The position numbers and the translations under genes are program-made. The notes beneath the pieces are model-generated. The model had not been told where the DNA came from. It did not search any database and saw only the letters and a program-made list of their open reading frames with translations. Below, piece by piece: positions 3,087 to 48,371 of a DNA stretch of 49,799 nt (positions within the stretch are counted from its first letter, which is position 1; the number at the start of each line of letters is the position of its first letter). Source of the DNA: a virus. Location: IMG/VR virus record IMGVR_UViG_3300022816_000110, positions 1 to 49,799 of that record; one strand, written 5' to 3'.

Positions 3087-3484
3087 GCGGTAAAGGCGCG
3101 GACATTGCATATGTGACACCATCTGATAATCGCGGTGCCGGCTCATGGGTAGGTAACCAACTTGAGGATTTAAAGGATGGTACGAAGGTTTTGTTTGTGG
3201 TTGGAGAATCAGATTCTACAGTCGATGCAGTTGTACCTGCAACCGATATTGCCGTGGCTACAGAGAAGCCTGTTGCCACTAAGAGACCCGCTGCAACCGC
3301 AAAACCAGCAGCTACAAAATCACCAACTGCAAAACCAACAGAGGCCCCAGTTATGGTTGAGGGTACTGTTTATTATGCTAACTGTTCTGCTGTCAGAGCT
3401 GCTGGTGCTGATCCAATTTATGAAGGTGATCCAGGCTACAGTCGTAAGCTAGATCGCGATGGTGATGGTGTTGCTTGTGAATAA
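2531..3484 (+). CDS. Secreted or membrane-tethered NucA/NucB-like DNase with excalibur domain
   Basis: A 317-residue protein with a TTG start behind a strong GAGGGGGAA ribosome site. Hydrophobic segments lie at about residues 3-25 and 38-55, the second ending in a lipobox-like FGGC. A Thr/Ser/Pro linker follows. The nuclease domain (about 120-230) has the NucA/NucB hallmarks [28 protein letters not shown] and NRGAGSWVG. An Ala/Lys/Pro-rich spacer leads to a C-terminal excalibur calcium-binding motif ([12 protein letters not shown]...DRDGDGVAC). These enzymes act on extracellular DNA. The gene is divergent from the Mrr-like gene. Confidence 0.85.
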
Positions 3485-4544: not shown

Positions 4545-4685
4545 TTATTTCGCTTTTAACCTTTACAGATATGCGCATTTATTTATTTTCAAACGAATTA
4601 CAGATAACAATATTAACCATTAGTAACTATTTGGAGCACAAATTACATTCACATAGAAATCGCGTACAAGAAGCAATGGACCGAG

Positions 4686-4715
4686 TTGCTTAAAATAATC
4701 ATTATCGACTATAAT
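4686..4715 (+). promoter_or_regulatory. Sigma-A-type promoter of the GHKL operon
   Basis: TTGCTT (4686-4691) and a perfect TATAAT (4710-4715) are separated by 18 bp. They lie 40 bp upstream of the start codon at 4755, which has an AAGGGGGAA ribosome site. Confidence 0.65.
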
Positions 4716-4754
4716 TTAGTAAATAGATAGATCGATCAATCAAGGGGGAACAGG

Positions 4755-6191
4755 ATGGCAATCCTAATTGATATTGGAATCCCATCTCCAATGAAATCCA
4801 TTTCCTCAAAAAATAGAAGAGGAAAATCTAAATATCATCATAAAATTGTATTAATGAAAATTCGTGAACGAAGAAGTCAGAAACAAATTATTAGAAAAAA
4901 GCGTAAAGCAGTAAAAAAAATCAAACGTATGAAACGCTTTTTCGAAGGAGAACGTTTTACAAATTCATTCATTAAATTTATAAAAACAAGTAAATTCACT
5001 AACAATAGTGAACCAGCAAAAAAACTCAAAAAAGATAATGATGGACATGTTATTATTAATATCCCACAAACTTTTTCACTTTTTCACAATCCAGATAAAG
5101 TTATCGAAACATATCACATTATTTTCAAATATGGATCTATGAGCTCAATACCGGGTCTAAATTTCAATCATACATTATGTACAGATTTAGAATTAGGTGC
5201 CTCAGCTGTCATGGACGTATTTGTAATACATCTTCTGGAGTATAAAAAACGTCTCTTAAAAAAATCGTTTGCTATCAGTGGAACTTTGCCTTCTAAAGGT
5301 CAGATCTCAGAGGTGCTGTTTGTAAGTGGATTACTCAAGCATTTAAAAATTGATAAAAGTATTCCTAAAATAATTCATGAACACAAACAAAACCTTAAGA
5401 CACTTGAGTTGATCCGTGGTGGTCAACATGCTACAACAATGTTGGTAACAAAAGCAATGAATTCTCAAACGGCAGCAACCAAAATAATAAAATATATCGC
5501 AGAATGTGTTCGAACTCAGGACTGTGAATTATCTAAAGAAGGTCATCGATATTTTTCACATCTAATTTGCGAAGTCCTCGATAATTGTCAAATACATTCA
5601 GGAGACTTCTGTCAGTGGTTCGCGCTTGGACATTTTGATATCGTTGAGGGCAATACATATGGACAGTGTAATCTTGTACTATTTAATTTCGGTAATACTA
5701 TTTATGAAAGTTTAAAGAATGGTCAACTTTCACCAGAAATAGAAAGTCAACTTTATAATCTAAGTAAACAATTTACAAATAAGCGCAAAAGTGATTGGAA
5801 CGAAGAAGAACTATGGACATTATACGCATTGCAGGAAGGAATAAGTAGATTAAAGAATACAGATGAAAACCAAAGAGATCGAGGAGTAGGAACCGTTAAG
5901 CTCATAAACGCATTCCAAGAAATCGGACGAGCAAAAGATGGAAATACACCTACCATGAGTATTATTTCAGGGAATACATACATACTGTTTAACAATAAAT
6001 ATTTTTTAGAAGATAAAGTGATTGATGGCACAACTGTCAAAACAATCGCATTTAATGAAACCAACGACATAAATTTGCCGCCAGACCCCGAGAATGTAAA
6101 AAGACTCGAAAATTACTTTCCTGGAACAATTATTACAATGAAATTTTATTTAGACTCAAATTTCATTAAGCCTGATACGGAGGAAATATAA
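4755..6191 (+). CDS. GHKL-type ATPase protein, first gene of a three-gene operon
   Basis: A 478-residue protein. The N-terminus (about 20-62) is very basic (RRGKSKYHHK, KIRERRSQKQ), suiting nucleic-acid or membrane contact. The C-terminal half carries histidine-kinase-like ATPase motifs: an N box (HLICEVLDNCQIHSG, E273 and N277), a G1-like stretch (LFNFGNTIYE, about 309-318), G2 (RDRGVGT, 374-380) and a G3-like PGTIITMKF (456-464). No His phospho-acceptor domain or transmembrane segment is seen. It is followed without a gap by a STAS-like protein, a pairing that recalls anti-sigma kinase/anti-anti-sigma switches. It lies past the lysis genes on the opposite strand, a usual site for phage cargo. 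Confidence 0.75.
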   Translation: MAILIDIGIPSPMKSISSKNRRGKSKYHHKIVLMKIRERRSQKQIIRKKRKAVKKIKRMKRFFEGERFTNSFIKFIKTSKFTNNSEPAKKLKKDNDGHVIINIPQTFSLFHNPDKVIETYHIIFKYGSMSSIPGLNFNHTLCTDLELGASAVMDVFVIHLLEYKKRLLKKSFAISGTLPSKGQISEVLFVSGLLKHLKIDKSIPKIIHEHKQNLKTLELIRGGQHATTMLVTKAMNSQTAATKIIKYIAECVRTQDCELSKEGHRYFSHLICEVLDNCQIHSGDFCQWFALGHFDIVEGNTYGQCNLVLFNFGNTIYESLKNGQLSPEIESQLYNLSKQFTNKRKSDWNEEELWTLYALQEGISRLKNTDENQRDRGVGTVKLINAFQEIGRAKDGNTPTMSIISGNTYILFNNKYFLEDKVIDGTTVKTIAFNETNDINLPPDPENVKRLENYFPGTIITMKFYLDSNFIKPDTEEI

Positions 6192-6526
6192 TGAAAAATG
6201 TGATTGAAATTAATTTAGGTCGTTTTCTAAGCCCAAATTCAAAAATATTATCTGGACGAAATGAGGGTTTTGATGCTAGAAAACAACTTAAAATTAATGA
6301 CTTTGATACTAATGATTTAGAATATGTTATAAAAATCCCTCAAGACACATGGTCAATAAATTCTTCATTTTTTCTTGGATTATTCGGAAAAAGCATTAGA
6401 GATATTGGAGAGTCTAAATTTCGCAAGAAATATTTGTTTGCAAATTGGAACGAATCTCTTCTAGATGATATTGAGGATGGAATTGTAGAAGCACAAAAAA
6501 ATAAAACGGCTCTAGAGGAAAAATAA
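6191..6526 (+). CDS. STAS-like (DUF4325-like) protein
   Basis: A 111-residue protein whose ATG overlaps the stop codon of the ATPase gene (TAATG), so the two are translationally coupled. The sequence (INLGRFLSPNSKILSGRNEG, YVIKIPQDTWSINSSFFLGLFGKSI) resembles the STAS-like DUF4325 family, with a beta strand followed by a WSINSSFFLGLFG helix. Such proteins often accompany GHKL ATPases and may be the regulated partner. No obvious phosphorylatable STAS serine can be assigned with certainty. The family assignment is from memory of the pattern. Confidence 0.6.
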   Translation: MKNVIEINLGRFLSPNSKILSGRNEGFDARKQLKINDFDTNDLEYVIKIPQDTWSINSSFFLGLFGKSIRDIGESKFRKKYLFANWNESLLDDIEDGIVEAQKNKTALEEK

Positions 6527-7288
6527 ATGAAATTTTTGATTATAGTGCTTTTAATCATCTTCATAATTTATCAATTCTTTCATACCATTGATTTATTATA
6601 TTTTGCAAAATCATTAAAGACTAACTTAGTATATGTTATAAAAGCAATTAAAAACGACTCAACTTTTGATTTTCTAAAAAGTTTAGCTGCGTTCGGAACT
6701 CTTTTCACATCTTTGTTTAATATTTGCTTGGTTATCTTTTTTTTCAGATCAGAAAGAAATTATAAAAATAAAATGCTAGATGTTGAACGACAATCATTTT
6801 GGTATCGCAAATTAATTTTGGAGAAAAAAATTGATACTGTATCAAAAGTATTTGACACAATTGAAGTTGAAGATTTTTATAATATTGACACTCAAAACAA
6901 TATAAAACCAGACAAAAGAAGACCACCAATAAAATCCAAAGTTATCGAACAAGAGCCAAAAGAAAAGATTTTTGTCGACAAAATAAAAACTGGGCTCAAA
7001 TCCCTTAAACGCGAAACAGGAGAATTAAATGGGTTAATACGAATAATTGATCCTAAATTCGCCAATACATTAGATGAGTGTATTTCTTTTTTTGCAGATG
7101 AGTACATGAAAAGCTGTTATAGCTACTTCAATTCACAGAAACGTTTATCAGACCACATTTTATTAATCAATAATTACAAACAACAATATTATGAGCTTAT
7201 TTATATTTATGAAAAAAATGGTTATAAACTCATCAAAGAAAAAAAATCGAAATTCAAACGTTTTACTTATTGGCTACGTCATAACTAA
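6527..7288 (+). CDS. Two-pass membrane protein with cytoplasmic coiled coil
   Basis: A 253-residue protein whose ATG directly abuts the previous stop. Hydrophobic helices lie at about residues 2-22 and 48-72 (FLKSLAAFGTLFTSLFNICLVIFFF). A charged, helix-rich domain follows (RNYKNKMLDVERQSFWYRKLILEKK), then Lys-rich sequence to the end. No family is recognised. As the last gene of the operon and its only membrane protein, it could be the effector controlled by the ATPase/STAS-like pair. That is inference from layout only. Confidence 0.6.
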   Translation: MKFLIIVLLIIFIIYQFFHTIDLLYFAKSLKTNLVYVIKAIKNDSTFDFLKSLAAFGTLFTSLFNICLVIFFFRSERNYKNKMLDVERQSFWYRKLILEKKIDTVSKVFDTIEVEDFYNIDTQNNIKPDKRRPPIKSKVIEQEPKEKIFVDKIKTGLKSLKRETGELNGLIRIIDPKFANTLDECISFFADEYMKSCYSYFNSQKRLSDHILLINNYKQQYYELIYIYEKNGYKLIKEKKSKFKRFTYWLRHN

Positions 7289-7344: not shown

Positions 7345-7983
7345 TTATTGTATGGCTTGTCCACTTGCTATCCGCAACTCATTAGCTAGGCGGTTATATT
7401 CATTGCGCGCTTCCTTGTCCTCAGTAGCACCATACCCTGCTTTTAAAAATCCAATGATCTTGTTTGCATCTTCTGGCTTCAACATCGGTTTTACCTCCAC
7501 TTTAGGCGGCACCACAACGGGCGCTGCTGCTTTGAAATAGTCTTGCAGGTATTTGGTAGGTTCAACAACTCCAGCCTCTGTAGCTGTCCATCCAAAGCTA
7601 GGAGATGCCGTCTTGCGAATCTCATAGTGCAAGTGATTGCCTGTACTCGCCCCCGTAGTGCCTTGTCTGCCGATCAGTTGATCGCGCGCCACCTTTTGCC
7701 CCACCTTAACAGCGGCGACGCTGAGATGGGCGTATAAATGGAGAAAGCCTTTATCATCCTTGATTGATACGACAATACCCATCTCCGCTGGCATTCCGAT
7801 ACCAGGCTTACCCAACCCAGCATACATTACCGTGCCAGCTACAAAAGCATGTAGCGGTCCATTGCCGGGAGTGACCACCAAGTCGACGCCACGGTGAAAC
7901 TTGTTAACGTGAAGTACAGGATGCATACGCATGCCGAATGGACTGGTTAATCGATATGATGGATCATAACTCCAATTACTCAT
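7345..7983 (-). CDS. M23 family peptidase endolysin
   Basis: A 212-residue LytM/M23 metallopeptidase that should cleave peptide cross-bridges in peptidoglycan. The zinc motifs are clear: HRGVDL (HxxxD type), HLYAHL and GNHLHYE. A Pro/Val spacer and a short charged helical tail replace a classic cell-wall-binding repeat. The frame is open further upstream, but ATG at 7983 overlaps the holin stop as ATGAGTAA and is the likely start. It is the last gene of the late operon and the lysis enzyme of the cassette. Confidence 0.88.
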   Translation of the reverse strand: MSNWSYDPSYRLTSPFGMRMHPVLHVNKFHRGVDLVVTPGNGPLHAFVAGTVMYAGLGKPGIGMPAEMGIVVSIKDDKGFLHLYAHLSVAAVKVGQKVARDQLIGRQGTTGASTGNHLHYEIRKTASPSFGWTATEAGVVEPTKYLQDYFKAAAPVVVPPKVEVKPMLKPEDANKIIGFLKAGYGATEDKEARNEYNRLANELRIASGQAIQ

Positions 7984-8248
7984 CGCTTTCAGCCCTCTCT
8001 TTTGCCTGCTTGATGATTTGATGACCAAATACTGCGAATGCGCCTGCTAAGACGCCCTGAATGACCGCCTCTGGCCCCCAACCAATCAACCACACTGTAA
8101 GTGCTAATGCTGCGGCAGTGACGATATAAACAATGCTCCAGTTCGGTACCTTTGGCGTATCCTTGAGCACATACCCAAGCACCCAGCATGCTGCAACAAC
8201 AATAAGTAATTTAGGGTCAATCAATTGAAAAATAGCATTCCATTCCAT
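7976..8248 (-). CDS. Phage holin
   Basis: A 90-residue membrane protein with a hydrophobic segment LLIVVAACWVLGYVL, a short KDTPKVPNW loop, a second segment IVYIVTAAALALTVWLIGW, and a third region GVLAGAFAVFGHQIIKQ ending in a charged tail. The pattern fits small Bacillales phage holins (Phage_holin_5_2-like). Holins time lysis by permeabilising the membrane. I chose ATG at 8248, which has GAGAGG at suitable spacing, over the upstream in-frame ATGs. It overlaps the endolysin start. Confidence 0.8.
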   Translation of the reverse strand: MEWNAIFQLIDPKLLIVVAACWVLGYVLKDTPKVPNWSIVYIVTAAALALTVWLIGWGPEAVIQGVLAGAFAVFGHQIIKQAKERAESDE

Positions 8249-8267
8249 TTCAATCATCCTCTCGAAT

Positions 8268-8570
8268 CTAATTTTGTTTACCAGCAATTTCTAACCGATC
8301 CAAACGGTGGTGTGCCTGCTTAGCCGACTCCTCAACCCTTGTTACGCGCTCGGACAGTACATCAAAGCGTTGACCTTGTGCGCGCTGCTCCAGCCTAACC
8401 TCATCGACACCTCGTTTGATATATTCCACGTCTGTTCGTAAAATAGCGTCCTTTCCTGCCTCCGTTTGCGTATCCTGTCGGATAGAACGATTCCTCCCAA
8501 ACCACCCGATTGCAATACCGCTAATTATTCCCGCTGCTGATAATAGCATCATGATAGATGATTGATCCAT
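8268..8570 (-). CDS. Lysis-cassette membrane/coiled-coil protein (XhlA-like)
   Basis: A 100-residue protein with an N-terminal membrane helix (residues 5-24, MMLLSAAGIISGIAIGWF) and a long charged helix with heptads (VEYIKRGVDEVRL, DVLSERVTRVEES, HHRLDRLE). Proteins of this design sit beside holins in Bacillus phages (XhlA/BhlA type), although those usually carry the membrane helix at the other end. The ribosome site is aggaggctaat. It is the first gene after the terminator at 8601-8624. Confidence 0.65.
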   Translation of the reverse strand: MDQSSIMMLLSAAGIISGIAIGWFGRNRSIRQDTQTEAGKDAILRTDVEYIKRGVDEVRLEQRAQGQRFDVLSERVTRVEESAKQAHHRLDRLEIAGKQN

Positions 8571-8591
8571 ATTAGCCTCCTAATATTATTT

Positions 8592-8624
8592 CAAAATAAA
8601 AAGCCTCCGCTTAAGCGGAAGCTT
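8592..8624 (-). terminator. Terminator after the xkdX-like gene
   Basis: On the minus strand the stem gcttccgc/gcggaggc is followed by tttttatttt. It overlaps the stop codon of the XkdX-like gene and would give partial termination before the lysis genes. Confidence 0.7.
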
Positions 8625-8757
8625 CGTAAACTTGACCTGTTATCAATTGGTATTCCGATGTTGTGATTGTGGCCGTCTTAACGCCATCTTTGACTTGTTC
8701 CAAACTCCAAAGCTCGCGATCATAAAATCTCTTTATCCTTTCATACCAAACACTCAT
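8611..8757 (-). CDS. XkdX-like small phage protein
   Basis: A 48-residue gene starting MSVWYERIKRFYDRELW and ending EYQLITGQVYEASA. It matches the XkdX family pattern of W-x-x-x-I-x-R-x-Y-D-x-x-L-x-x-x-x-x-V, then I-T-x-x-E-Y-x-x-I-T-G. XkdX genes lie between tail-fibre and lysis genes in PBSX-like elements, exactly as here. The ATG overlaps the stop of the upstream gene (ATGA). Its role is unknown in the family. Confidence 0.8.
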   Translation of the reverse strand: MSVWYERIKRFYDRELWSLEQVKDGVKTATITTSEYQLITGQVYEASA

Positions 8758-9251
8758 GCGCTAGCACCTCCAGTCATGATTGCATACCAAATATCCGCTA
8801 TATCTGAGTCATGCTCAGTTATCCGCGCATCTTTGAGCATCGTGTCATACCACAGATCGGCATTTTCAGCTTCGAGCTGCTCAATTCTAATCTGTTCGGC
8901 TGTCTTTGGAGGCGGAGTATTTTCCTGCTCGATCTCCTCCGGTGTCTTATCGCGTTCTGTTACAGATACTATCTTGCCTTCAACTATCTCCAAAGTAAAG
9001 TAAGGTCTGAGCCTTTGAATAGTATCCATAAGCTCCTTCTGTTCTTCAACGTCAGAGTCGAGAATGTAGTAAGGGATTGCTGAGTCTGGATAGCTGTTAG
9101 CGTTGAGCCAATACCCAATTTCATAAACTCCATTCTCAAACACTAGCATTTTATCGGTTGTTGACTCAGCAATTGACGTAGGTAAATCAACAGGAGCTAC
9201 AGGAATTACTTCCTCTTCTGGGTCAACAACTTCTTCAATCTCTTCTTCCAT
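8754..9251 (-). CDS. Fibre-associated protein of unknown function (XkdW position)
   Basis: A 165-residue acidic protein. The N-terminus is Glu/Val/Pro-rich, the middle (LVFENGVYEIGYWLNANSYPDSAIPYYIL) looks beta-rich, and the C-terminus is a helix with LEAENADLWYDTMLKDARI. The place between fibre and XkdX is where XkdW-like or fibre-assembly proteins are found. The C-terminal helix would suit a chaperone or trimerisation role, which is inferred. The ribosome site is ggagcg. Confidence 0.65.
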   Translation of the reverse strand: MEEEIEEVVDPEEEVIPVAPVDLPTSIAESTTDKMLVFENGVYEIGYWLNANSYPDSAIPYYILDSDVEEQKELMDTIQRLRPYFTLEIVEGKIVSVTERDKTPEEIEQENTPPPKTAEQIRIEQLEAENADLWYDTMLKDARITEHDSDIADIWYAIMTGGASA

Positions 9252-9262
9252 TGTAAACGCTC

Positions 9263-12200
9263 CTATCTGAATATGATGTAGTGGTATTGCCTATTTGGTG
9301 CGTTAGTTCCGTTAGCTGATGCGTCAGGGTTGCTACTGTTGTATGATACTGACATCGTCGACCCGCTGATAGCAATCTCAGTTGCGCTCCCTGATGATAC
9401 ATTATAGAAAGGCATTGCCAGACCGCCCGCTGCGCTTGCAGTACCAAGAGCTTGGAATAATGTAGAAGTACTAGGCATAATAAGAACAGCCGAAGGTGCG
9501 AATGGGAGCGTGATGTTTCGTGTTGCAGTACCGCTGCCTAGATACATCCCTGACGCATAAGGCTTGACCTCAGACGTGTATAACTCTGCCCATGCCGTCC
9601 ACACGCCGTTAACCATTCGCCTTGTATAAGTCTTCCAATTATCCGTGTCGTATGCGTTCTGCACAGCCCAATTTCCTACCGGATACTTACTTACATGGAT
9701 GAAATAGTTCCTTCCCGCAACAGGAGCGTTAAGCCCCCCGGGTACGTGGTACCAACCATCTGTTTGCATGAAGTTTATTTCCGTACCCGCAACTGTATAG
9801 TTGTACATGTCGTTACTCAACTGCGACCATCCGCCCCAAGTCCCAGTACCCAATCTTCTTCGTTCGTACACAGTATTTAACGCCCAATCGCGGTATGTTT
9901 GAGCAACAGCCCCTCCACCATGAGCGATGACTGTTAAGTAACCCGCAGAACCCGCTATGGCTGCGTTCGCTGGTAGATTCACAAAATAGTTTCCAGACAC
10001 AATGAGAGTGTTCAAATCCAAGCCTGGGGTGCTTTTGTCTATCGTCTCATTACTTATTTGAGTCCAAATAGACCAAACGCCTGCCGTATAACGACGGGTA
10101 AAATATCGACTACCATCTACAATATAGGCATGTTGACAGACGTAACCGGCAATTGAAGGATGATTAGCAATATTAACAATGTAAAATGCCACGTTTGCAA
10201 TAGGCGCGTTTACTGCATTATAAACATACCAGCTACCGATAGTTTGAAGGCTATTAAGAGAATTGTAACCATCAGGAAGAAGAATGCTTTCTTTTGCCTT
10301 TTGAACGAATTCAACAGTAGATAATTGAGTCGTATTCGTACCGACCGCTGCTGTTGGTGCTGTTGGCGTTCCAGTAAAACCTGGCGATGCGATTGCTGCT
10401 TTCGCGTTCCATGTAGCTTTCTCCGCGTCTGTTACGAACCGATTACTAGAGTCCTGCGTAATAATGGATGGCGGATGATTCAAAGGGTGCGCGTAGTTAT
10501 TGGCATCTGCAGCGATACCATCGAGCTTGATTTTGTCGGGAATACTTTGAAAGCCTGCTTCTGTCTGTGTCGCAATGGCATGTGATAAACCTCGCGATCC
10601 GATATGAGCATATAGATCAAATCGAGTGTTTAATGCGTAAGCCTCGTCAAGCATAAGACGCCAGTCTTGTACGCTGTCTTTTGTTTTAATATCCGTAATG
10701 TCTTGAGTGTTTTTAGCAACCGTCCCGCCTAAAGTGCTTTGGTAGGTTAGGGTTGCATCAATGATGTTTGTTGTCATTTTGTACTTATCTAGCGGCAGAT
10801 AGGTGACGGTGTATTCTGCGGTAGCATCAAAATCCGCCTCTAAAATTTGTATTTGAGCAGTTACATTGCCGTATCCACCACTCGGATTCGGGTACTTTGC
10901 TTTGCTATCGACAACTCCATTTTTATAAACACTCATGATCATTTCAGCTTTGTTTTTAAACCATGAAGCCGGATAAACATTCGCATTTATATAATAAACT
11001 CCGCTGCTTAAGATTGGATTTGCTTTCTCTCGAATAACAACCCCCTCAAGCAGCTCGATTTGATTACCGCCCGCTTGCAGACCTATTGCGCCTTCTGCAA
11101 CAACAGTTTCTTCTTTCGTCGTCGCAAGCTGGTAATCCAGCGTGTATGGTGTGTACGATAGAGATTTTGCGGTAGGAAGGACACTGACGTTTAGTTCAAC
11201 GTCGAGATCGAAAGTGTCTATATTGATTCCACTCGCAATGGTTCCGTTACTTGCGTCCGCGTAGATTGAAAAGTGAACAAAACCATTCGCGTCAATCAAA
11301 CTTGGAACTGATGCGGTTGGTACTACATTTGATACTTTCACAATCGTCGCTGACGTTGTTGTTGCGGGAGTGTACCATACATTGCCTGTCGCGTTAAAAG
11401 ATGCTAGACTCACCTTGTTCCCCGCTGGCCCGCTACCCGAAATGTAACCATTTCCAACTAACTTCGACACATTAGCCTTGAGCCACGCAACGCGCTCGGC
11501 AACGGTTACTGCAGAGCCGAATAACCACGAACCATGTTTACGAATTACGTATTCGATTAGGTTTTTCGATTCCAACCTCTGCGAGATTTGTCCATTTGTT
11601 GTTGTGGTAATCGGTCTAACCGTACCGTCTAACGTTTTCGCTGCGTCGTATTGAGCCTGTGATTCTTCGCCGCCCCAACTACCATTAGGTAGAATTAAGG
11701 TGCTGCTGAATCCCCATTTCACGATATGCGGGTTTTCTACAACGCTACCTGCAATTTTACCTTCCAAATCCGCTTTCGGACTGACTAAAGGCGTCCACTT
11801 TCTAGGTCCAACTAGATACTTAGTGCCTACCGTCCCGTTATTGATCTGCCAGCCGTTGAAGTAGGCTTGTATCTCCGGCACCGTCGGCGTGTATGCATCA
11901 TCCCAACCGCTTTCGGAATCCGCAATAGTGAGATAAAAATATGCCGTACTCGTAATTATTGCGAATTGATCCCCGGCGGTATCATTATTTATGTCCGGCA
12001 CTCTTTCGAGTATCTTGCCATCGTACTTTACAGCTGTCCCCACAACACCGTTAGGCGCTGGAACCTGCACTCGTTTATAATTCGCTCTGTCGGCATTGAA
12101 TAGCCACGGCAACGAACCGTCCAACACGATACCCGTCCTATGTCTCCGCGTAACCGTTCCTAGCGCGTCGTTGTACGTGTCCTTAACGCTGCCGTCCACA

Positions 12201-29816: not shown

Positions 29817-31664
29817 CTATCCGATTCCTTTATTCACGACACCTTTTCGCCGCCGCGCTGGTGGAGAAGCAGTTTTTGCCTTCGATGGTTCATTCTCTTC
29901 CTGCCTTCGCTGTAACAGTGCAGCAAGGACCGTCTCCCCACCAATGATTTCAAGGGCGACATTGGCATAATTCCGACAGTCAAGCGGCTCGTTTCGGGAA
30001 CCGGCTCTTTTCAATTCCCAATGAAATGATGGCCTGCCTTTGACATAACGCATAACCTTATGCTCAGACGTTAGTCCTTTAAAATAACTCTCATCGTAGT
30101 CAGGCGAAGCCGGAAAATGACAATAGCCCGCTCCGATGGTATCCGAAGCAAGCCGCGACGCTAATGTATCCTTACCAACGTCAACACCTATATTAAAGAG
30201 CCAAACACCTGCGTCATTCTTCCTTTTAGGTTTCATGATTAAAGGGATACCATTTCCGCCTTTACCTTTTATTGCCCAAACTCGACGCAGCTCCCTCTTT
30301 TTACAGTACGTATATACTGCTTTTGTAAAGTGACCGCCCGTATCGATCGCCGTCGACATCACCTGCATGTCTACGCCGTCTGATCGAGCAAACGAAGCAT
30401 TAATGACTTGAGCGTCGAGCATATCCCAAACGTGCTTTTGCCCCGGATTACCCATGATAACTCCGTACTTAATACCCCAACTCTCCGCTTCCTCGCCCCA
30501 GCCAACAATTTCATACTCCAATCGATTATCCTGAACGTCAACCCCACATGTGAGCAGCAGAACTTCGTCCGGTACATCAGCAGGATAAGGCTCGCAACGC
30601 TTCATCAGTCCTTCTGATTCAACACCAGTTCCGCGTTCTTCCCACGTTTCTGCAAGCGACGTATTCGTCCACGTCTTTAATTGTTCAACCCCGCCCCGCT
30701 TGGCCTCCATAAAGTTTTGAACGACCTCAGACCAGGAAACAAATGTACTCGACAGCTCATTAAGATGGAATCCTCTTGTCTTTGCATTCTTTTTACGTGC
30801 AATCCACTTTGCTTCAACAGCCTTCCATACATATTCGTCATGCATTTCTCCGCAAGAGCGGCAAGCATGAGTAACGTCACTTGCTGTTTTCGTTTCCTCA
30901 TCATAGGTGAAGTGAAGCTGCGGCCATGTCAATGGCTGGTATTCTTCGCAGCTAGGACATGGATAACAATATTGCTCCATGGTGCTTTGTTCATAAGCAA
31001 ATTCAATGCGTGATATCCCTTTGGTTGTCGGCGTACTGACTAAGATTCGCTTTCGATTCCAAAACGTTGTCGTTCTTTTCGTAACCAAGTTAACCGGATC
31101 GCCTTCTGTACCTGCTGATGCTGGATAACGGTCCACCTCATCAAGCAATACAACACGAATCGGGCGACTCGCGAGTGATGAAGGCGCATTTGAACCAGCT
31201 AACGTGATATGTCCACCAGGGAACTTCTTGTGCAAGAGGGTGTTGCCGCTATCCCTTGACTTTACATCTCTTACTTTATCCCTTAGTTTCGGCGTATCCC
31301 TAAGCATTGGCGCTAACCGATCCTTTGAGAAAGCTTCAGCAAGTAGCTCCGTAGGTTGTACCAACATAATAGGAGCCGGATCTTGATCAATGTAATAACC
31401 GATTGTATTGAGAATAATTTCGGTTTTACCGACCTGAGCCGACCACATTAAAACAATGGTTTCTACACTCGGGTCATTCAGGGCATCCATCGGACCACGT
31501 TGGAACGGAGCTCGACTTGTTCGCCACTGACCAGGCTCAGCAGAAGCTTCTGGTGACAACTTCCGATGAGCATCAGCCCATTCTGATACTGTCAGCTGTG
31601 GTGGCGGTGCAACAACCTTCGCACAAGCCCGAAAGAGTCGAAATAACTTATCCAGTTTCGCCAT
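29817..31664 (-). CDS. Terminase large subunit (GpA family)
   Basis: About 615 residues. The ATPase domain has a Walker A variant SAQVGKTE (near residue 77), a Walker B VVLLDEVDRYP (near 173) and a following zinc-like pair CYPCPSCEEY/CRSCGEMH. The C-terminal nuclease region contains LLTCGVDVQDNRLEYEIVGWG. It packages DNA and cuts at cos-type sites in lambda-like phages. ATG at 31664 has GAGG at good spacing; an in-frame ATG is two codons upstream. It overlaps the small-subunit stop. Confidence 0.94.
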   Translation of the reverse strand: MAKLDKLFRLFRACAKVVAPPPQLTVSEWADAHRKLSPEASAEPGQWRTSRAPFQRGPMDALNDPSVETIVLMWSAQVGKTEIILNTIGYYIDQDPAPIMLVQPTELLAEAFSKDRLAPMLRDTPKLRDKVRDVKSRDSGNTLLHKKFPGGHITLAGSNAPSSLASRPIRVVLLDEVDRYPASAGTEGDPVNLVTKRTTTFWNRKRILVSTPTTKGISRIEFAYEQSTMEQYCYPCPSCEEYQPLTWPQLHFTYDEETKTASDVTHACRSCGEMHDEYVWKAVEAKWIARKKNAKTRGFHLNELSSTFVSWSEVVQNFMEAKRGGVEQLKTWTNTSLAETWEERGTGVESEGLMKRCEPYPADVPDEVLLLTCGVDVQDNRLEYEIVGWGEEAESWGIKYGVIMGNPGQKHVWDMLDAQVINASFARSDGVDMQVMSTAIDTGGHFTKAVYTYCKKRELRRVWAIKGKGGNGIPLIMKPKRKNDAGVWLFNIGVDVGKDTLASRLASDTIGAGYCHFPASPDYDESYFKGLTSEHKVMRYVKGRPSFHWELKRAGSRNEPLDCRNYANVALEIIGGETVLAALLQRRQEENEPSKAKTASPPARRRKGVVNKGIG

Positions 31665-32184
31665 CGGCATGTTCCTCGATAAAGCTTTCGTTTAATTCAT
31701 GGAATTTCTGCGGATCGTAAAGAGTTAACTCGTTTAATGCCTCATAAACTGCATCGCCAAGGATCTGCAGGATGACCGGCATTTTTTTGCCCACCAACTG
31801 CGCTGATAACTTAGTTGGAATGGCAAGCACACGGGAGCGGAACGCAGCAATCATATCGTTCATAACGAGGGAAACATCTTCGGAACGATGGAGTTCTCCT
31901 TTCATAACCGATAAATTCATTTCAGCCATCTGCCGCTTTGCTCGTTCATGCAGCGCTCGCTCACCAAAATAATCTACCTCTGCATCGGCTCCACCATCTT
32001 TCACCTGCAATTGTTGAATATATTGTTGCACGCTGACGACAAGCTTATATTTACCGCGATTCAGTTTTACAAGAATGCCTTCCTCGGCCAGCTGCTGAAT
32101 ACGTCTAGGACTTAAATTCAGCAGCTTCGCCATCTGGTTTGTGGTAAAAAGCATTTCGCTTTCGTCTTTTTTTTCGTTTGCCAT
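31648..32184 (-). CDS. Terminase small subunit (Nu1-like)
   Basis: About 178 residues. The N-terminal winged helix (LFTTNQMAKLLNLSPRRIQQLAEEGILVKLNRGKYKL) binds the packaging site. It is followed by a helical assembly domain (YFGERALHERAKRQMAEMNLSVMKGELHRSEDV) and a C-terminal part that contacts the large subunit. The frame is open further upstream; I chose the MANEKKDE start because the upstream sequence is hydrophobic and unlike the family. Confidence 0.88.
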   Translation of the reverse strand: MANEKKDESEMLFTTNQMAKLLNLSPRRIQQLAEEGILVKLNRGKYKLVVSVQQYIQQLQVKDGGADAEVDYFGERALHERAKRQMAEMNLSVMKGELHRSEDVSLVMNDMIAAFRSRVLAIPTKLSAQLVGKKMPVILQILGDAVYEALNELTLYDPQKFHELNESFIEEHADGETG

Positions 32185-32424
32185 TTCGCTTTGTCCGCCC
32201 CCTTCCTTATCACATGAAAACGCAAAGAACCCTTGACATATAAGGGTTAATGGTCCCTGTTTATTTATACATGACCATGAATACGTATGAATCACGAAAC
32301 GCAACGATCATATTTTTTTTGTCGCTAGATGAAATTCGGGCTCACGCGCACCCGCAGTCGTTTGAAGTCCCAGAAGTACCTTTTTGGGCTGAATTGGAAC
32401 GTTGCAGATGGTCTGAAATGGTAG

Positions 32425-32567: not shown

Positions 32568-33116
32568 TCATAAGCCGAAGCGCCTCATCGCGTTGTTAAC
32601 CATATCTTGATCCATACCGATATATCTCATCGTAATAGCCTTGTCTGAATGATTAAGCATCTTCTGAACAAGAGTAATGTCCTTGGTCAATTGATACATA
32701 TGATAACCAAAAGTCTTGCGAAGCGTATGCGTCCCAATATCTACAAGGCCAAATTCTTTAGCAGCTGCTCTCATAATCTTATAAGCCATATCTCGCTTGA
32801 TCGGCTTGTTTGCGCCGCCTTGCCTTGAAGGAAATAGGTAATCATCAATATCCATTTTCATCGTATATTTTTTTATCTCCCGTTTAATGGTCGGATTTAG
32901 CTCAACGAATCTCCTTTTTTTAGTTTTCATCTCAAACATGACAAGTTGATCACGATCTAACACATCTCGGACACGTACCCCTAAAATATCTTGTATGCGT
33001 AAACCTGTGTTAATACCGAAAACAAACATCATATAATTTCGATTACTTTGTTTTTTTAAATAATCTTTGATTTCTTCAATCATTTCCTGATTTCGGATCG
33101 GTTGAACGAAATTCAT
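32568..33116 (-). CDS. Short tyrosine recombinase (catalytic domain only)
   Basis: A 182-residue XerD/integrase-like protein lacking the N-terminal arm- and core-binding domains. Active-site residues are visible: Arg in NTGLRIQDILG, Lys in KTKKRRFVEL, HTLRKTFGYH (HxxR) and His/Tyr in LNHSDKAITMRYIG. Similar short recombinases sit just upstream of terminase genes in many Bacillales phages, perhaps resolving concatemers or dimers. It lies next to the probable packaging site and is separate from the lysogeny integrase at 46.6-47.7 kb. Confidence 0.85.
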   Translation of the reverse strand: MNFVQPIRNQEMIEEIKDYLKKQSNRNYMMFVFGINTGLRIQDILGVRVRDVLDRDQLVMFEMKTKKRRFVELNPTIKREIKKYTMKMDIDDYLFPSRQGGANKPIKRDMAYKIMRAAAKEFGLVDIGTHTLRKTFGYHMYQLTKDITLVQKMLNHSDKAITMRYIGMDQDMVNNAMRRFGL

Positions 33117-33130
33117 ATGATCACCTCACA

Positions 33131-33155
33131 AAAAAAAGCACCCCTTGGGGTGCTT
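33131..33155 (-). terminator. Rho-independent terminator
   Basis: A perfect 9-bp stem aagcacccc/ggggtgctt with a 2-base loop (33136-33155) is followed on the minus strand by a run of eight or nine T. It ends the AT-rich three-gene cassette before the recombinase gene. Confidence 0.85.
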
Positions 33156-33160
33156 ACTTA

Positions 33161-33802
33161 TTACGCTACTTCAAAAGAATTACTTATTTTAGAATAAAAA
33201 TCTTTTGACTTTGCTTCTAATGTGTATTCATGAATTCCCTGTCTTGCAAATTTCACTTGTATTTCTGCCAAGAAGAATTTATCAGAACTATTTTGTAGAT
33301 TTGTAACTGTATTTATTGGAATTGTATACTCATAATCATCTGCAAATGTTCTAGGAAATACTTGCGACCCACAAATCAGTATTGGTCCCCATGTGCATTT
33401 TGTTGTAATTTTAATGTCAGGCGGTGGCGTTATACTAAAAGGTGCATTCATTATGATTTGTATTTCTCTGTCCGTATCCTTAGTTAATACACCTCCTCCT
33501 TTTGGATGTAAGGCTAGGTACATCCGATTATCTCCATAGGAATTTGACTGAAATAATAATTGGGAAGTTTTTAAATTAGCTTCCACAACTTGCTTTTCTG
33601 CTTTAGTCAAGTCATCTTCAGCTGTTTTCAAGTTAGATTTTAATGAATTATTCTGAGATAATAAGTGTTGAACCACTACTGCATATATCAGTATCCCACT
33701 TAGGTATAATAGAATCTCTCGTCTATTATATTCCCCACCTAATATCGCTCCAAAGATCGCCAGGGTTGCCAATGATAAAATATTAATTATTGTTTTCCAC
33801 AT
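33161..33802 (-). CDS. Membrane protein with coiled coil and beta domain (cassette gene 3)
   Basis: A 213-residue protein. Two membrane helices (residues 5-22 and 30-48) are followed by a coiled coil (LLSQNNSLKSNLKTAEDDLTKAEKQVVEAN, about 47-77) and a C-terminal domain of alternating strands (REIQIIMNAPFSITPPPDIKI, FFLAEIQVKFARQGIHEYTLEAK) that looks like a beta sandwich. No family is recognised. It overlaps the upstream gene by about 20 bases and precedes a strong terminator. Confidence 0.7.
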   Translation of the reverse strand: MWKTIINILSLATLAIFGAILGGEYNRREILLYLSGILIYAVVVQHLLSQNNSLKSNLKTAEDDLTKAEKQVVEANLKTSQLLFQSNSYGDNRMYLALHPKGGGVLTKDTDREIQIIMNAPFSITPPPDIKITTKCTWGPILICGSQVFPRTFADDYEYTIPINTVTNLQNSSDKFFLAEIQVKFARQGIHEYTLEAKSKDFYSKISNSFEVA

Positions 33803-34397
33803 ACGGAAAGTCCTCTATAAAGTTAATTAGTGTATTTATATCACTCGTATTTATCGATATCATCCCTTTTTTTGCAATCGATATAAATAAATTATTACTT
33901 AACATTAATAAATAGGATATTGTGTGTTTGATTTTCATTTTTGATTTAAGCAGATCAGTATTAACAGCTTCATAGGACCAGTCTTCACCATCAGGATCAA
34001 TCATTTCCAATTGTTTGATATAACCATCATAATTATCAAGAATTTTACAAATAGTTTCACTTGAAAACGACATTCGCTCAGTAACAATATCTATTTCCAT
34101 TAAATATTTTGCTATTTCTTCAGAATATTTATCATTAATATATTCTACAAACATTAGATTTGTTTTCTTTTGAACAAATGTATTAATATATTGCGACATT
34201 GGCATGTTCATTTGATTTCCAACAATTTTAGTACCCCACACATACTCATCTCTAAGATTAAATACTATGTGTATAATGTCCTCGTTAATATTGTTAAAAT
34301 GGAATATACTTGTATCGTCTTTGGACATAATCTGAACACTTTTCTTTGCTTTATTTATTTCACTTTTTTTATCAATTTTAAAAGTAGAAAACTTCAT
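33783..34397 (-). CDS. Hypothetical protein (cassette gene 2)
   Basis: About 204 residues, mostly helical and AT-rich in codon use. It has FHFNNINEDIIHIVFNLRDEYVWGTKIVGN, then long helices (IAKYLMEIDIVTERMSF, KMKIKHTISYLLMLSNNLFISIAKKG). No known motif. ATG at 34397 has AGAGGTG upstream and follows the previous stop by 12 bases. It is the middle gene of a compact three-gene unit. Confidence 0.65.
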   Translation of the reverse strand: MKFSTFKIDKKSEINKAKKSVQIMSKDDTSIFHFNNINEDIIHIVFNLRDEYVWGTKIVGNQMNMPMSQYINTFVQKKTNLMFVEYINDKYSEEIAKYLMEIDIVTERMSFSSETICKILDNYDGYIKQLEMIDPDGEDWSYEAVNTDLLKSKMKIKHTISYLLMLSNNLFISIAKKGMISINTSDINTLINFIEDFPYVENNN

Positions 34398-34409
34398 GAA
34401 TATCACCTC

Positions 34410-35204
34410 TTAAACACTATAATGGTGTAGGGTTTGTAAAAGTACTAATTGGAACTTCTTTACATCCTCATCATTCCCAAATTCGTCAGTATTAATAAAT
34501 ATTCGGTTACCGCCTTCTTTATACAGCTTTACACTTATCATTGGTCTTGTATTCGGATCTCTATCTTCAAACACAATAGGATGTTCAAAGGTCAGTTGGT
34601 TCATCTTTCCGTGATCTCGGTATTCTTGGTCTACACGCGATTCCGATGTATCAGTGGGATCTATTTCAAACGATACCTTCCTAGTTTTATCTCCGCTTTT
34701 TTCAATTTTATCAATTTTAACTGCTCTCCACTCAAAATCATTTTGAATTTTCCGAATTAGTGAGTCAGTTACTTTAAATGAAGATATTTTAAAGCCCAAT
34801 GTCTCTAATATACTTTTCACTCGAGATTTGGAACCTTCTTCTGCTGACCAATCAAATTTCATAATCACATAATTATTGTCTGTGATCATCAAACTTGATC
34901 TGTTAAAGTACTTATGTTGTATCTTATTTGATCTTATTGAATCCCCTGTTATTTCAGCAGGATAATAATACCCTAAACTGTTCTCAGTTGTTGTAAAACA
35001 TTCAATGTATCTTAGACCTTCATTATTTTCTTTTATTTGTATATTAACAAAGCCTTCGCCAGATATTCTCCCATCATCGGTAGGCATCAATTTTTGTTCC
35101 ATTGCTACCTTAACCTTTTGCAAATCTAAACAACCATTTGAATCTGATAAAAAAAAATCAGGTTGATGGGAAGTGCTTAGGCCATATATAACTATGCTCG
35201 ACAT
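34410..35204 (-). CDS. Hypothetical protein (cassette gene 1)
   Basis: A 264-residue soluble protein with no recognised family. It is rich in beta segments (FVNIQIKENNEGLRYIECFTTTEN, KVSFEIDPTDTSESRVDQEYRD, MISVKLYKEGGNRIFINTDEFG) around a helical middle (SRVKSILETLGFKISSFKVTDSLIRKIQNDF). The start has AAGGGG. As the first gene of the cassette it may act with the two downstream products. Its composition is more AT-rich than the flanking head genes, which suggests separate acquisition. Confidence 0.65.
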   Translation of the reverse strand: MSSIVIYGLSTSHQPDFFLSDSNGCLDLQKVKVAMEQKLMPTDDGRISGEGFVNIQIKENNEGLRYIECFTTTENSLGYYYPAEITGDSIRSNKIQHKYFNRSSLMITDNNYVIMKFDWSAEEGSKSRVKSILETLGFKISSFKVTDSLIRKIQNDFEWRAVKIDKIEKSGDKTRKVSFEIDPTDTSESRVDQEYRDHGKMNQLTFEHPIVFEDRDPNTRPMISVKLYKEGGNRIFINTDEFGNDEDVKKFQLVLLQTLHHYSV

Positions 35205-35377
35205 TCACATGACCCCTTTGGATTGAAATATATTACAAATAAACCATATGGGGTCGTAAATGTCTATGACTTTTTACTTATTTTAAAAAATACATGCCTA
35301 GATAACAGACAAATTTTAACCATGATGAAAGTTCCTACTTCTATTCCAACCTTAATTATGATATATTTGTTTCAAAT

Positions 35378-36115: not shown

Positions 36116-36385
36116 TTCACGTTTCCCAAAGCTTGAGCGTATTTGCTATCGACTAAGTACCCTTATTGATTTTGCGATCAACCGTTGAACCGTGCCATAT
36201 CTCGAATCACGCAACGGTTATATGGTGCGGCTTCCTCTTATTATACCTAACGTCAATCATTCGCTTACTTCGTAATCTTGTATTAGGTTTACTGCTCGAT
36301 CTATGGTGCCGACGCTTGATTTATAGGCAATGTAGATGCCCAATTGAGCAAATGATTCGATTTCTTTTACCTCAAAACTATCTGC
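35890..36385. repeat. Direct repeat, left copy (about 0.5 kb, diverged)
   Basis: It matches about 38465-38960 in the same orientation, with many substitutions. The two copies flank the plus-strand insert 36601-38357 and so mark a duplication or recombination event that brought in that cargo. Confidence 0.8.
36117..36385 (-). pseudogene. Decayed copy of the late transcription regulator
   Basis: This is the left copy of the C-terminal two-thirds of the regulator at 38692-39087. The frame FEIWHGSTVDRKINKG can be read, but it has an in-frame TGA just before it and a TAG just after, where the intact copy reads VARFE and KGIESIA. Similarity ends near 36385, with no N-terminal part. It cannot make the regulator. 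Confidence 0.8.
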
Positions 36386-36600
36386 ATGAGAGCTTCCATG
36401 TCTCTTATGAGCTAAACCTTTTCCATATCAACACCTCACACATATTCCTCTTTAAAATTTTCAAAATAAAAAGCTTCTGGACTACGTGGTCTACTGCAAT
36501 TAAAAATATTTCATATAAGGTGGCGCTGCAATCTTGCAGGAATTCTAACATATTTGCCGAAATTTAGGAATGAATATAAAAATAGATAGGTGGTTTTCAT

Positions 36601-36791: not shown

Positions 36792-37058
36792 CTATAGGCG
36801 CCTAACGGCGTCTTTTTTATTTCCAAAACCACCATCTCCCCTAACCGTCTTAGCAATATGACATAACCAGCATAGCGCGTACCGATTGGGTCGGTCCCTG
36901 AAAAGCACCTTGTCGCCCTTGTGAGGTATGATGTGATCGACTACCATTGCCTATATTACCTTCCCCTTTTCATAACCAGCTACACAATCATTACTTGCAT
37001 AGAAAACCAACCAGAGCCTTGCACCATAATGCGCCGCAGCCCCTCTCTCCTTGTCATA
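36792..37058 (-). pseudogene. HNH endonuclease remnant
   Basis: The minus strand reads YDKERGAAAHYGARLWLVFYASNDCV, then an in-frame TAG, then VVDHIIPHKGDKVLFRDRPNRYALCWLCHIAKT. The second part is the HNH motif (VDHIxPHKGD...N...LCxxCHxxKT) of the small nucleases that sit near terminase genes in many phages. The nonsense codon and missing N-terminus show decay. The terminator of the Sm-like gene overlaps its 3' end. The rest of 37059-37325 is AT-rich with no gene. Confidence 0.75.
36797..36822 (+). terminator. Terminator of the Sm-like gene
   Basis: The stem ggcgcc-taac-ggcgtc is followed by tttttt on the plus strand, eight bases after the stop codon. Confidence 0.8.
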
Positions 37059-37325: not shown

Positions 37326-38006
37326 TTGAAGAAGAAAATGGTTGCAGGTATGTTAGCTTTAGGTTTGACGATCGGTGCAATAGCTCCAGTTTCTGCATCA
37401 GCACAAGTAGCAAACACAGTAAGTGACAACACGCTATCAGTAAATTTTAAGAATGTGAATTTCGCTGCTTTAAATGACGCCTATCTAATAGAATCTTATA
37501 TCACTGTCAGTGATGCAGGTATTCTTGTTATAGATGATGACGGACGTGCTTTAGTATCACAAGAAACTTTTAAAATGGTTCAAGATGGAATAGACATACT
37601 AAACACTTCGATTTTAGCTGGTAATTCTGTTATTGACATGGAAGCAAGAAGTGTTGTTCCAGTTACTAATTCATCATTAAACTCAGGTATGATTACTCCA
37701 TATGCTAGTGCAGGGACTTACTGGTGGGGCGTAGCATTAACTATGAACGAACAAGAAGCTAGTGATCTTATATATACCCTAAGACAAATCAGTTTAGGGT
37801 TTGTCGCTGAAGCAGGACTTGCAGTAATGTTTGCTACAATTGTAGGTGGACCTGTAACATGGTCTGCTGCAGCTGCCGGAACTCTTGTTACTCTTGGAAC
37901 TACCCTGGTAGCAAATAGCTTGGAGCATCATAACAACAAAAAAGGTGTTACATTAAATATACATTGGCTACTTGTGCCATATTATGAAGTAACAAAGAAT
38001 TCTTAA
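37326..38006 (+). CDS. Secreted protein, bacteriocin-like C-terminus
   Basis: A 226-residue protein with a TTG start, AGGAGAG upstream, and a clear signal peptide (KKKMVAGMLALGLTIGAIAPVSASA). After a polar middle domain, residues from about 128 become short-side-chain and hydrophobic (YASAGTYWWGVAL, then GFVAEAGLAVMFATIVGGPVTWSAAAAGTLVTLG), the kind of membrane-active segment found in bacteriocins and hydrophobic toxins. It is followed by a small membrane protein, as bacteriocins are by their immunity proteins. The role is inferred; no known family is recognised. Confidence 0.7.
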   Translation: MKKKMVAGMLALGLTIGAIAPVSASAQVANTVSDNTLSVNFKNVNFAALNDAYLIESYITVSDAGILVIDDDGRALVSQETFKMVQDGIDILNTSILAGNSVIDMEARSVVPVTNSSLNSGMITPYASAGTYWWGVALTMNEQEASDLIYTLRQISLGFVAEAGLAVMFATIVGGPVTWSAAAAGTLVTLGTTLVANSLEHHNNKKGVTLNIHWLLVPYYEVTKNS

Positions 38007-38053
38007 GCTATATTATGTTATAATAATCATAAAAAAAGAGGTGCTATCTGATT

Positions 38054-38320
38054 ATGTCACCAATTGCAATTGGGATTATAAGCATTTTCGCGCTTTTGTC
38101 CTTTTATGGTTTAATTACTGTTTTAGTCATAAAACTGATTTTCAAACGATCTGTCAAACCCAATCTTAATAGTGCTTATTTCATTTTAGGAATTATTATA
38201 TTAGGATCTATTATAAGTTTTAGCGTCTCCGATAAGCAGCCTTTAACATATACCTATACAATCTTTACATTGTTCATCATCACCTCAGCTGCAATATATC
38301 GAAATAGGAGAAAGCTTTAA
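38054..38320 (+). CDS. Small three-pass membrane protein (possible immunity protein)
   Basis: An 88-residue protein with hydrophobic segments at about residues 4-28, 41-58 and 64-82 and a basic C-terminus (YRNRRKL). It lies 47 bp after the secreted protein gene, has a GAGGTG ribosome site, and is followed by a perfect terminator. Size and place suit an immunity protein for the upstream product, which is inference. Confidence 0.65.
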   Translation: MSPIAIGIISIFALLSFYGLITVLVIKLIFKRSVKPNLNSAYFILGIIILGSIISFSVSDKQPLTYTYTIFTLFIITSAAIYRNRRKL

Positions 38321-38690: not shown

Positions 38691-38960
38691 TTCATGTTTC
38701 CCAAAGCTTGAGCATATTCGCGATAGACTCAATACCTTTATTGATTTTGCGGTCAACTGTTGAACGGTGCCATATCTCGAATCGCGCAACGGTCACATGA
38801 TGTGGCTGCCCTTTAATATACCTGACGTGGATCATGCGCTTAATATCATCGTCTTGAATTAGGTTAACCGCACGGTCGATGGCACTGACGCTTGCTTTAT
38901 AGGCATTGTATACGCCTACTTGCTTTGGAGCAAGTGAATCAATCCCTTTTACTTCAAAAT
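38465..38960. repeat. Direct repeat, right copy
   Basis: It is the counterpart of 35890-36385 (offset 2575 bp). It covers the structured RNA and the C-terminal part of the intact regulator gene. Confidence 0.8.
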
Positions 38961-39087
38961 CATCGACCACTGATTTCATGCGGCGATACCGTGATAAGGC
39001 AGCTTTCGCTATTTTTAATTCTGATTTAGTTGCCTTTGGAAATAATTCTATCTGTTCACCATACCAGTCCAATGCCATTGCCAACAT
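38692..39087 (-). CDS. Late gene transcription regulator (ArpU/RinA-like)
   Basis: About 131 residues with a helical N-terminus (LFPKATKSELKIAKAALSRYRRMKSVVDDFE) and a C-terminal sigma-region-4-like helix-turn-helix (IHVRYIKGQPHHVTVARFEIWHRSTVDRKINKGIESI). Such proteins activate late operons in Firmicute phages. The ATG at 39087 has AAAGGGG at good spacing; the ATG nine bases upstream abuts the GGGG. It has its own promoter and is the last gene before the cargo insert. Confidence 0.8.
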   Translation of the reverse strand: MLAMALDWYGEQIELFPKATKSELKIAKAALSRYRRMKSVVDDFEVKGIDSLAPKQVGVYNAYKASVSAIDRAVNLIQDDDIKRMIHVRYIKGQPHHVTVARFEIWHRSTVDRKINKGIESIANMLKLWET

Positions 39088-39105
39088 TTCCCTCATCCCC
39101 TTTAT

Positions 39106-45603: not shown

Positions 45604-45620
45604 AATACGAGGTGATTAAT

Positions 45621-46052
45621 TTGGAATTTCCAGAAAGACTTAAAAGTCTAAGAAAAGATAAAGGTATGACTCAAGAAGAATTAGGATTAAAGATAAATGT
45701 TACTAAGGTATCAATTTCTGGTTATGAAAATGGCAATAGAACTCCTGACATGGATACTTTGCAAAAAATAGCAGATGTATTGGAAACAACAATTGACTAC
45801 TTATTGGGTAGACAAGACCAAAACAACTACATACCTGAATGGGCAACCTCAAAAGATAAACGTGATTTTAAAAAAATGCTTGAAGATGATGGCGAGATAA
45901 TGTTTGATGGAGTGCCTATGTCTGAGAGAGATCGGGAACGGGTAATGGACGTGTTGTCTGGACTATTCTGGGAGGCTAAAGAAATGAATAAAAAAACATA
46001 TGGCAAAAAAAACAACAAAAAAAACTCATTGAATGAAAACAACAAAGAGTAG
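45621..46052 (+). CDS. CI-like XRE repressor
   Basis: About 143 residues. The N-terminal helix-turn-helix (LKSLRKDKGMTQEELGLKINVTKVSISGYENGNRTPDMDTLQKIADVL) is followed by a C-terminal region (IPEWATSKDKRDFKKMLEDDGEIMFDGVPMS) and a Lys/Asn-rich tail. It should keep the prophage silent by binding the AGTTAACT operators. TTG at 45621 has GAGGTG at good spacing; GTG at 45612 is a weaker choice. It is followed directly by an ImmA-like protease gene. Confidence 0.85.
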   Translation: MEFPERLKSLRKDKGMTQEELGLKINVTKVSISGYENGNRTPDMDTLQKIADVLETTIDYLLGRQDQNNYIPEWATSKDKRDFKKMLEDDGEIMFDGVPMSERDRERVMDVLSGLFWEAKEMNKKTYGKKNNKKNSLNENNKE

Positions 46053-47744: not shown

Positions 47745-48002
47745 TTTCGTGGGGAAAATGTGGGATGTTTATTTGAAGATCACTGTTATATAGGGCTATC
47801 CAAGCTCCTATCGACCATGTTCTACATGACCTCCTTTTTCAAATAGGCTGTTATCATCGATAATGCTTGTTCGTGAGTATACGTTTCTTGCTCCAACAGC
47901 ACGGCGGATAATATATCCTTCTGGGAAGGCGTATACCGTCTAGCCGACTTTAGCTGCTCCTTGCTGAACCTTGGTTCCAGCTCAGCTTCCTGCAATCTGC
48001 TT
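47728..48002. repeat. Left arm of 275-bp inverted repeat
   Basis: Positions 47728-48002 are the reverse complement of 49434-49708 (x pairs with 97436-x). The arm runs from the last codons of the integrase through the intergenic region into the 3' part of the 62-residue protein gene in reverse, ending inside the second repressor gene. Confidence 0.9.
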
Positions 48003-48371
48003 GTTCATATGCTTAGCTTCCCAGAACAACCCTGTAAGCACATCCATTACGCGCTGACGATCGGTAGCACTAAGCGGTACGCCGTCAAACATAATTTCTC
48101 CGTCTTCCTCAAGCAGCTTTTTAAAGTCGCGCTTATCTTTATACGTAGCCCACTCAGGTATAGTTGCCGAGGCTGCATCGCGGCCAAGCAAATAATCGGT
48201 TGTCGTCAGTAAGATATCTGCCATTTTTTGCAAATCCTCACTTGTTGGTGTCACTCGATCATTCTCGATATGACCAAAGTTAGAGCGGCCCATCTCGAGC
48301 TTTGCGGCGACATCCTGCTGCGTTAATCCGCGCTCAACCCTTAGTTGTTTAATTCGTGCACCCAATGACAT
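47982..48371 (-). CDS. Second XRE repressor, C-terminus at a repeat joint
   Basis: A 129-residue protein with IKQLRVERGLTQQDVAAKLEMGRSNFGHIENDRVTPTSEDLQKMADIL, then IPEWATYKDKRDFKKLLEEDGEIMFDGVPLS and ADRQRVMDVLTGLFWEAKHMNK. Its C-terminal half is nearly the same as that of the repressor at 45.6 kb, but the DNA-binding half differs. The last five residues lie in the inverted-repeat arm, so the true end is uncertain. GGAGGG precedes the ATG. It is divergent from the sigma-like gene. Confidence 0.8.
   Translation of the reverse strand: MSLGARIKQLRVERGLTQQDVAAKLEMGRSNFGHIENDRVTPTSEDLQKMADILLTTTDYLLGRDAASATIPEWATYKDKRDFKKLLEEDGEIMFDGVPLSATDRQRVMDVLTGLFWEAKHMNKQIAGS

Follow-up and report, generated by a model that had tools for sequence, protein, structure and literature searches.

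The 49,799-nucleotide virus record IMGVR_UViG_3300022816_000110 (IMG/VR), referred to below as the window, comes from a Paenibacillus-type prophage and carries three adjacent genes of no recognised family, which raises the question of whether they form an anti-phage system or serve the phage itself. A sequence-only reading of the window had compared their soluble-soluble-membrane layout in a mobile slot with that of many anti-phage systems. We propose that the trio is most likely a prophage-encoded superinfection-exclusion system following the logic of lambda RexAB, a reading that we consider to have about an even chance of being correct. The proposal is made because the trio is a mobile cassette, occupies a slot that holds defence genes in related phages, encodes two candidate proteins of the RexA/RdgC fold and supplies them with a membrane partner. 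To our knowledge, no prophage exclusion system has been known for longer than RexAB, and how it works has yet to be settled.

The open reading frames of the trio were found on the minus strand at 33161-35204 (Table 1), overlapping or closely spaced as had been described. Genes 2 and 3 overlap by 20 nt, and genes 1 and 2 share one reading frame, split by a TAA codon and four further codons; the length of gene 2 is counted from its ATG, and an alternative GTG start is possible at 34406. The greater AT-richness relative to the head genes was borne out, with a GC content of 0.30-0.32 in the trio region (0.335, 0.26 and 0.33 for genes 1, 2 and 3) vs 0.46-0.50 in the head and packaging genes, and the strong terminator was located between gene 3 and the recombinase as a terminator-like hairpin of 8 pairs followed by a T run. 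The lack of a recognisable family also held, as none of the three proteins found a match in Pfam, PHROGs, PADLOC or NCBIfam. The trio is transcribed in the direction of the late genes, a point against an exclusion system, and repressor-like HTH genes of the window lie at 45612-46052 and 47982-48371. A leader of about 60 nt upstream of gene 1 is strongly conserved in four other copies of the trio (G186, G145, G120 and L114), its conservation in the window being only marginal (score 14-15 vs a shuffle maximum of 13-15).

Table 1. Features of the trio locus and the borders of its slot (positions in the window)
Feature	Position	Strand	Description
Gene 1	34410..35204	-	264 aa soluble protein; predicted RdgC/RexA/Iml3-type double alpha-beta (TBP-like) fold
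Gene 2	33783..34397	-	204 aa soluble protein; two predicted beta-alpha-beta4-alpha repeats, same fold class
Gene 3	33161..33802	-	213 aa membrane protein; two TM helices, coiled coil and Ig-like beta sandwich, all predicted
Intrinsic-terminator-like hairpin	33136..33155	-	closes the trio operon
Upstream leader	35205..35264	-	conservation among trio copies
Small tyrosine recombinase (phrog_216)	32568..33116	-	intact in the window
Small terminase gene	31648..32304	-	one border of the cargo slot
ArpU-like late regulator	38692..39096	-	other border of the cargo slot; homologues in L111 and L082

Homologues of the trio came only from a six-frame whole-genome search and from alignment-based scans, single-sequence searches having given no match for any of the three proteins in viral contigs, or for gene 1 in phages, plasmids and genome contigs. 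The six-frame search of 396 Paenibacillaceae genomes identified three clear homologues of gene 1 (48% identity), and in 3/3 of these genomes genes 2 and 3 follow with their order kept. Searching the same 396 genomes with gene 3 led back to these three genomes, as did a gene 2 search over a sample of the order, and neither search gave any other convincing match. From viral contigs, alignment-based scans further yielded L114 and L115, both with all three genes; L115 and the genome copy G145 are one prophage. The whole trio, with its order kept, is found at L106, L107, L108, L114 and L115, and each gene is 39-49% identical to its counterpart in the window. Among the close copies G186, G145 and G120, dN/dS is 0.14-0.24 for each of the three genes. 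These values and the homologues at 39-49% identity demonstrate that all three genes are under purifying selection as proteins and are real genes rather than chance open reading frames, and the trio is a real unit. Weaker matches (L109, L118, L127, L128 and L130; L129 lay outside the inspection) contained no trio-like gene, and the longer open reading frames at the inspected loci encode ordinary proteins, e.g. AraC-type and response regulators.

Structure prediction gives a first indication of what the soluble proteins may be. Because they share a reading frame, genes 1 and 2 were modelled together as a single read-through chain, an artificial construct for which Foldseek does not report which part matched; like the other models of the trio proteins, it was built on 3-5 sequences. 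In the model (pLDDT 57), gene 2 contains two copies of a beta-alpha-beta4-alpha unit, and the elements of gene 1 are arranged similarly. The best Foldseek match of the model in the PDB is RdgC (9e-6), followed by Iml3/CENP-L and CENP-N and, weakly, by RnlA and TBP, with TM-scores of at most 0.42 to the leading matches; in a library of viral proteins, phage RdgC proteins rank at the top and TBPs below them. The RexA structure 8twq is not among the 50 matches listed for this low-confidence query. RexA shares its fold with RdgC, IML3 and CHL4 (PMC11077077). As the single TM-scores are low, the argument for the fold relies on the coherence of the matches across the two libraries, and the modelled assignment of genes 1 and 2 to the RexA/RdgC/Iml3 fold class is supported but not proven. 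Profile comparison with hhalign gave nothing significant between gene 1 and gene 2, RexA or RdgC (RdgC probability <1%); the control comparison of RexA with RdgC was likewise negative, therefore the method has little power for this relationship. A PDB profile match of gene 2 to NanoRNase C (E 0.011) was too weak to be considered. Both proteins are acidic (pI 4.7-5.6), which speaks against the proposed reading, although the DNA-binding RdgC is acidic too (5.27). The profile searches and structure prediction that the sequence-only reading had recommended thus named no family, and yielded an RdgC-type fold from models of low confidence.

The trio occurs as a unit elsewhere, in other types of phage and alone on one chromosome. 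The phage of the window has a GpA-type large terminase, and the terminases of other carriers (587 aa in L111/L115 and 457 aa in L114) are both unlike it, so that the trio is carried by phages of three terminase types. On the chromosome of Paenibacillus G186, an apparently intact copy stands alone amid host genes. The genome G189 is 94-96% identical to G186 on both flanks of this copy and lacks the 2.6 kb at L110:7506-10102, which consists of the trio (7791-9857) and a recombinase remnant. At the start of the insert are the final 47 codons of the small tyrosine recombinase of the slot; they are interrupted by an internal stop and are 74% identical to the intact gene of the window. This remnant indicates that the chromosomal trio probably came from a phage slot. 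A shorter recombinase remnant lies upstream of the trio in G120 and is probably the C-terminal part of the same gene. The recombinase and the trio stand side by side, with an order that changes between copies. With a GC content of 0.26-0.35, the trio is much more AT-rich than the G186 flanks (0.547). The three genes form a mobile accessory operon, passed on as a whole between a bacterial chromosome and phages that are unrelated to one another.

The closest related phages (L004, L082 and L084) lack the trio at this place. Their lack of it rules out virion or packaging genes and, together with the presence of the trio in other contexts, contradicts the possibility that these are ordinary conserved phage genes always found at this locus. 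The same observations bear on a module for phage development, in which proteins of the RdgC/RexA fold would work with a partner anchored in the membrane to tune the phage's own recombination or its lysis-lysogeny switch. The lambda switch is likewise biased by RexA (PMC11077077), phage homologues of RdgC are common, and the window has the trio next to a recombinase and not far from a late regulator; however, its absence from the three closest relatives, the three terminase types of its carriers and the apparently intact copy standing alone on a chromosome all speak against such a role, which we regard as distinctly unlikely.

In related phages, the region bounded by the late regulator and the small terminase serves as a cargo site, the late regulator being homologous in the window, L111 and L082. 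In L004 it contains only the recombinase and small genes, in L082 (Paenibacillus piscarius) a TIR-TM gene (PADLOC, E 3e-61) and in L084 a gene for a 406-aa membrane protein. Elsewhere the slot holds HicA/HicB (L003), a HicB-like gene (L018), a Fic protein matching SoFic (1e-36; L090), a weak AbiN-like gene (L088) and a DUF5677 gene (L105), and in L112 a homologue of PD-T7-4 lies 3 kb from the trio. The varied contexts of the trio, its absence from relatives and its defence neighbours correspond to those of mobile phage cargo (a moron) in a defence slot. The link between slot and defence relies on guilt by association at a few loci, without statistical control, and it is consistent with an anti-phage function. 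The anti-phage reading first made from the sequence is supported in part: the trio is a mobile unit, relatives have recognised defence genes in the slot, and the anti-phage role itself is inferred. The slot, in phages of Paenibacillus and other Bacillota, is a place in which to seek new defence genes.

Several further genes were observed in or near this slot. In L111, a 257-aa two-TM coiled-coil protein with a conflict-associated CyanoTRADDas_TM domain (Pfam 9e-16) is encoded directly after the trio in the opposite direction (L111:10047-10820, minus strand), and in L114 a PAS and methyl-accepting-chemotaxis signalling protein (L114:8194-9048) lies just before the trio, within the phage slot. 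A degraded second copy of the late regulator, with stops and a frameshift, is found upstream of the trio in the window (36120-36418), which indicates that the slot has been rearranged. A fragment at 36792-36947 resembles, by eye only, an HNH endonuclease near the small terminase of L111. At 37326-38320, a plus-strand pair runs against the surrounding genes and encodes a 226-aa signal-peptide protein and an 88-aa membrane protein, neither with a match in Pfam; it looks like a bacteriocin with its immunity protein. Two other regions of the window are of note. A 710-nt inverted repeat (94-803 and 2377-3086; 98% complementary), which could be real or an assembly artefact, surrounds 1.6 kb containing a gene for an Mrr-type restriction endonuclease (1658-2413; Pfam Mrr_cat 4e-35) and duplicates part of a NucA/NucB-Excalibur nuclease gene. 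A second AT-rich cargo block (3459-7288), without a match in PADLOC, adjoins the endolysin and encodes a 361-aa membrane protein, a 478-aa protein without assignment, a weakly STAS-like DUF4325 protein (111 aa) and a 253-aa membrane protein.

The presence of HicAB in the slot of related phages, and the small, closely spaced genes of the trio, would also suit a toxin-antitoxin or other selfish maintenance module without an anti-phage role. We consider this improbable, as the trio has three genes of 204-264 aa with no toxin family detected in Pfam, PADLOC or NCBIfam, no HEPN-type R-x4-6-H motif on inspection of the conserved columns by eye, a membrane protein with a large soluble domain, and two soluble partners that are similarly conserved. 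An RnlAB-type toxin was rejected, as this inspection by eye showed no HEPN motif.

Gene 3 was predicted, from its sequence and from a model (pLDDT 63), to have the two membrane helices, coiled coil and beta-rich domain initially ascribed to it. Every homologue tested has the hydrophobic helices (residues about 2-24 and 28-49), after which the model shows a long helix (57-86) and, at the C terminus, a domain rich in beta structure. The helical hairpin has lysine-rich ends on its outer sides, which suggests that both ends of the protein are cytoplasmic. The best PDB matches of the beta sandwich are generic Ig-like domains (Foldseek), and naming the protein from them (pilins, complement, AGS-C) was therefore dropped; the weak resemblance to the AGS-C domain of PycC ranks 45. 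CBASS and Pycsar were rejected, as genes 1-3 contain no cyclase family in Pfam, PADLOC or NCBIfam.

The combination of a membrane protein with soluble candidate DNA binders is also that of Kiwa, which pairs the membrane protein KwaA with the DNA-binding KwaB (PMC12904381). A Kiwa-like cassette, in which gene 3 would hold the soluble proteins at the site of injection and phage DNA would be blocked without damage to the membrane, is the main alternative to the Rex-like reading, albeit an unlikely one. It draws on the same genomic evidence, and RdgC reportedly binds DNA within its ring (PMC11077077). However, KwaA and KwaB (DUF4868) have no match to the trio in Pfam or PADLOC, so that by sequence the trio is not Kiwa, and the number of genes differs, with KwaB a single protein vs two here and gene 3 combining two TM helices with an Ig-like domain.

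For Rex-like exclusion, we propose the following series of steps. Proteins 1 and 2 would pair, probably as a heterodimer in the manner of Iml3-Chl4, and would detect a DNA or protein-DNA state that is specific to infection. The pair would then act on the membrane protein via its Ig-like domain, a probably cytoplasmic docking site. Multimerisation of gene 3 products would damage or depolarise the membrane, and the infected cell would abort. Two different soluble proteins would thereby stand in for the RexA homodimer, and gene 3 for RexB. RexA works with the membrane protein RexB (PMC11077077), and the Rex-like CarolAnn proteins gp43/gp44 give defence, for which a model has a RexA-like sensor activating a membrane channel (PMC6426606). 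For the trio, both the anti-phage outcome and this mechanism are inferred. More tentatively, and with odds on the lower side, the trio may represent an anti-phage system of a new, three-component type, in which two distinct proteins of the RexA/RdgC/CENP-L type, as a bacterial heterodimer, gate a 2-TM, coiled-coil, Ig-domain membrane effector, in a small cassette spread among Paenibacillus phages and chromosomes. If so, the Rex design would be broader than its sequence families, a rare, compact and independently mobile operon would join two RexA/RdgC-fold proteins to an unrelated kind of membrane partner, and a second system would be available for asking if DNA is sensed by the RexA fold and by what route the signal reaches the membrane.

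Comparison with named systems places the trio near RexAB in design. Both are prophage-borne and join soluble protein to a membrane protein, and the predicted fold class of genes 1 and 2 is that of RexA, via RdgC and Iml3. At the level of sequence the trio is not a member of the RexAB family, as its genes match neither PF15969, PF15968 nor the PADLOC RexA model, whereas the lambda RexA control matches PF15969 and PADLOC RexA at 1e-97 and 9e-110. Lambda RexAB has one soluble protein and the trio two, and gene 3 differs from RexB in its two TM helices, coiled coil and Ig-like domain. In lambda and CarolAnn the order is cI-rexA-rexB, whereas the trio is not beside cI; the Rex-like genes of Sbash have their own promoter away from the repressor, so that adjacency to cI is not a strict requirement (PMC6426606). 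The Rex-like systems of the actinophages Sbash and CarolAnn, compared with the trio by Pfam only, are likewise rare prophage defences of soluble and membrane protein, but have two genes, for a 370-aa soluble protein with a weak DUF4747 match and a 4-TM partner. RdgC, the top structural match of the gene 1 and 2 model in two libraries, is a single 303-aa homodimer with neither a membrane partner nor profile-detectable homology to the trio. The Iml3-Chl4 (CENP-L/CENP-N) kinetochore heterodimer is eukaryotic, has no membrane protein and resembles the model at the level of the fold only; as a pair of two proteins, it has the arrangement that we propose for genes 1 and 2.
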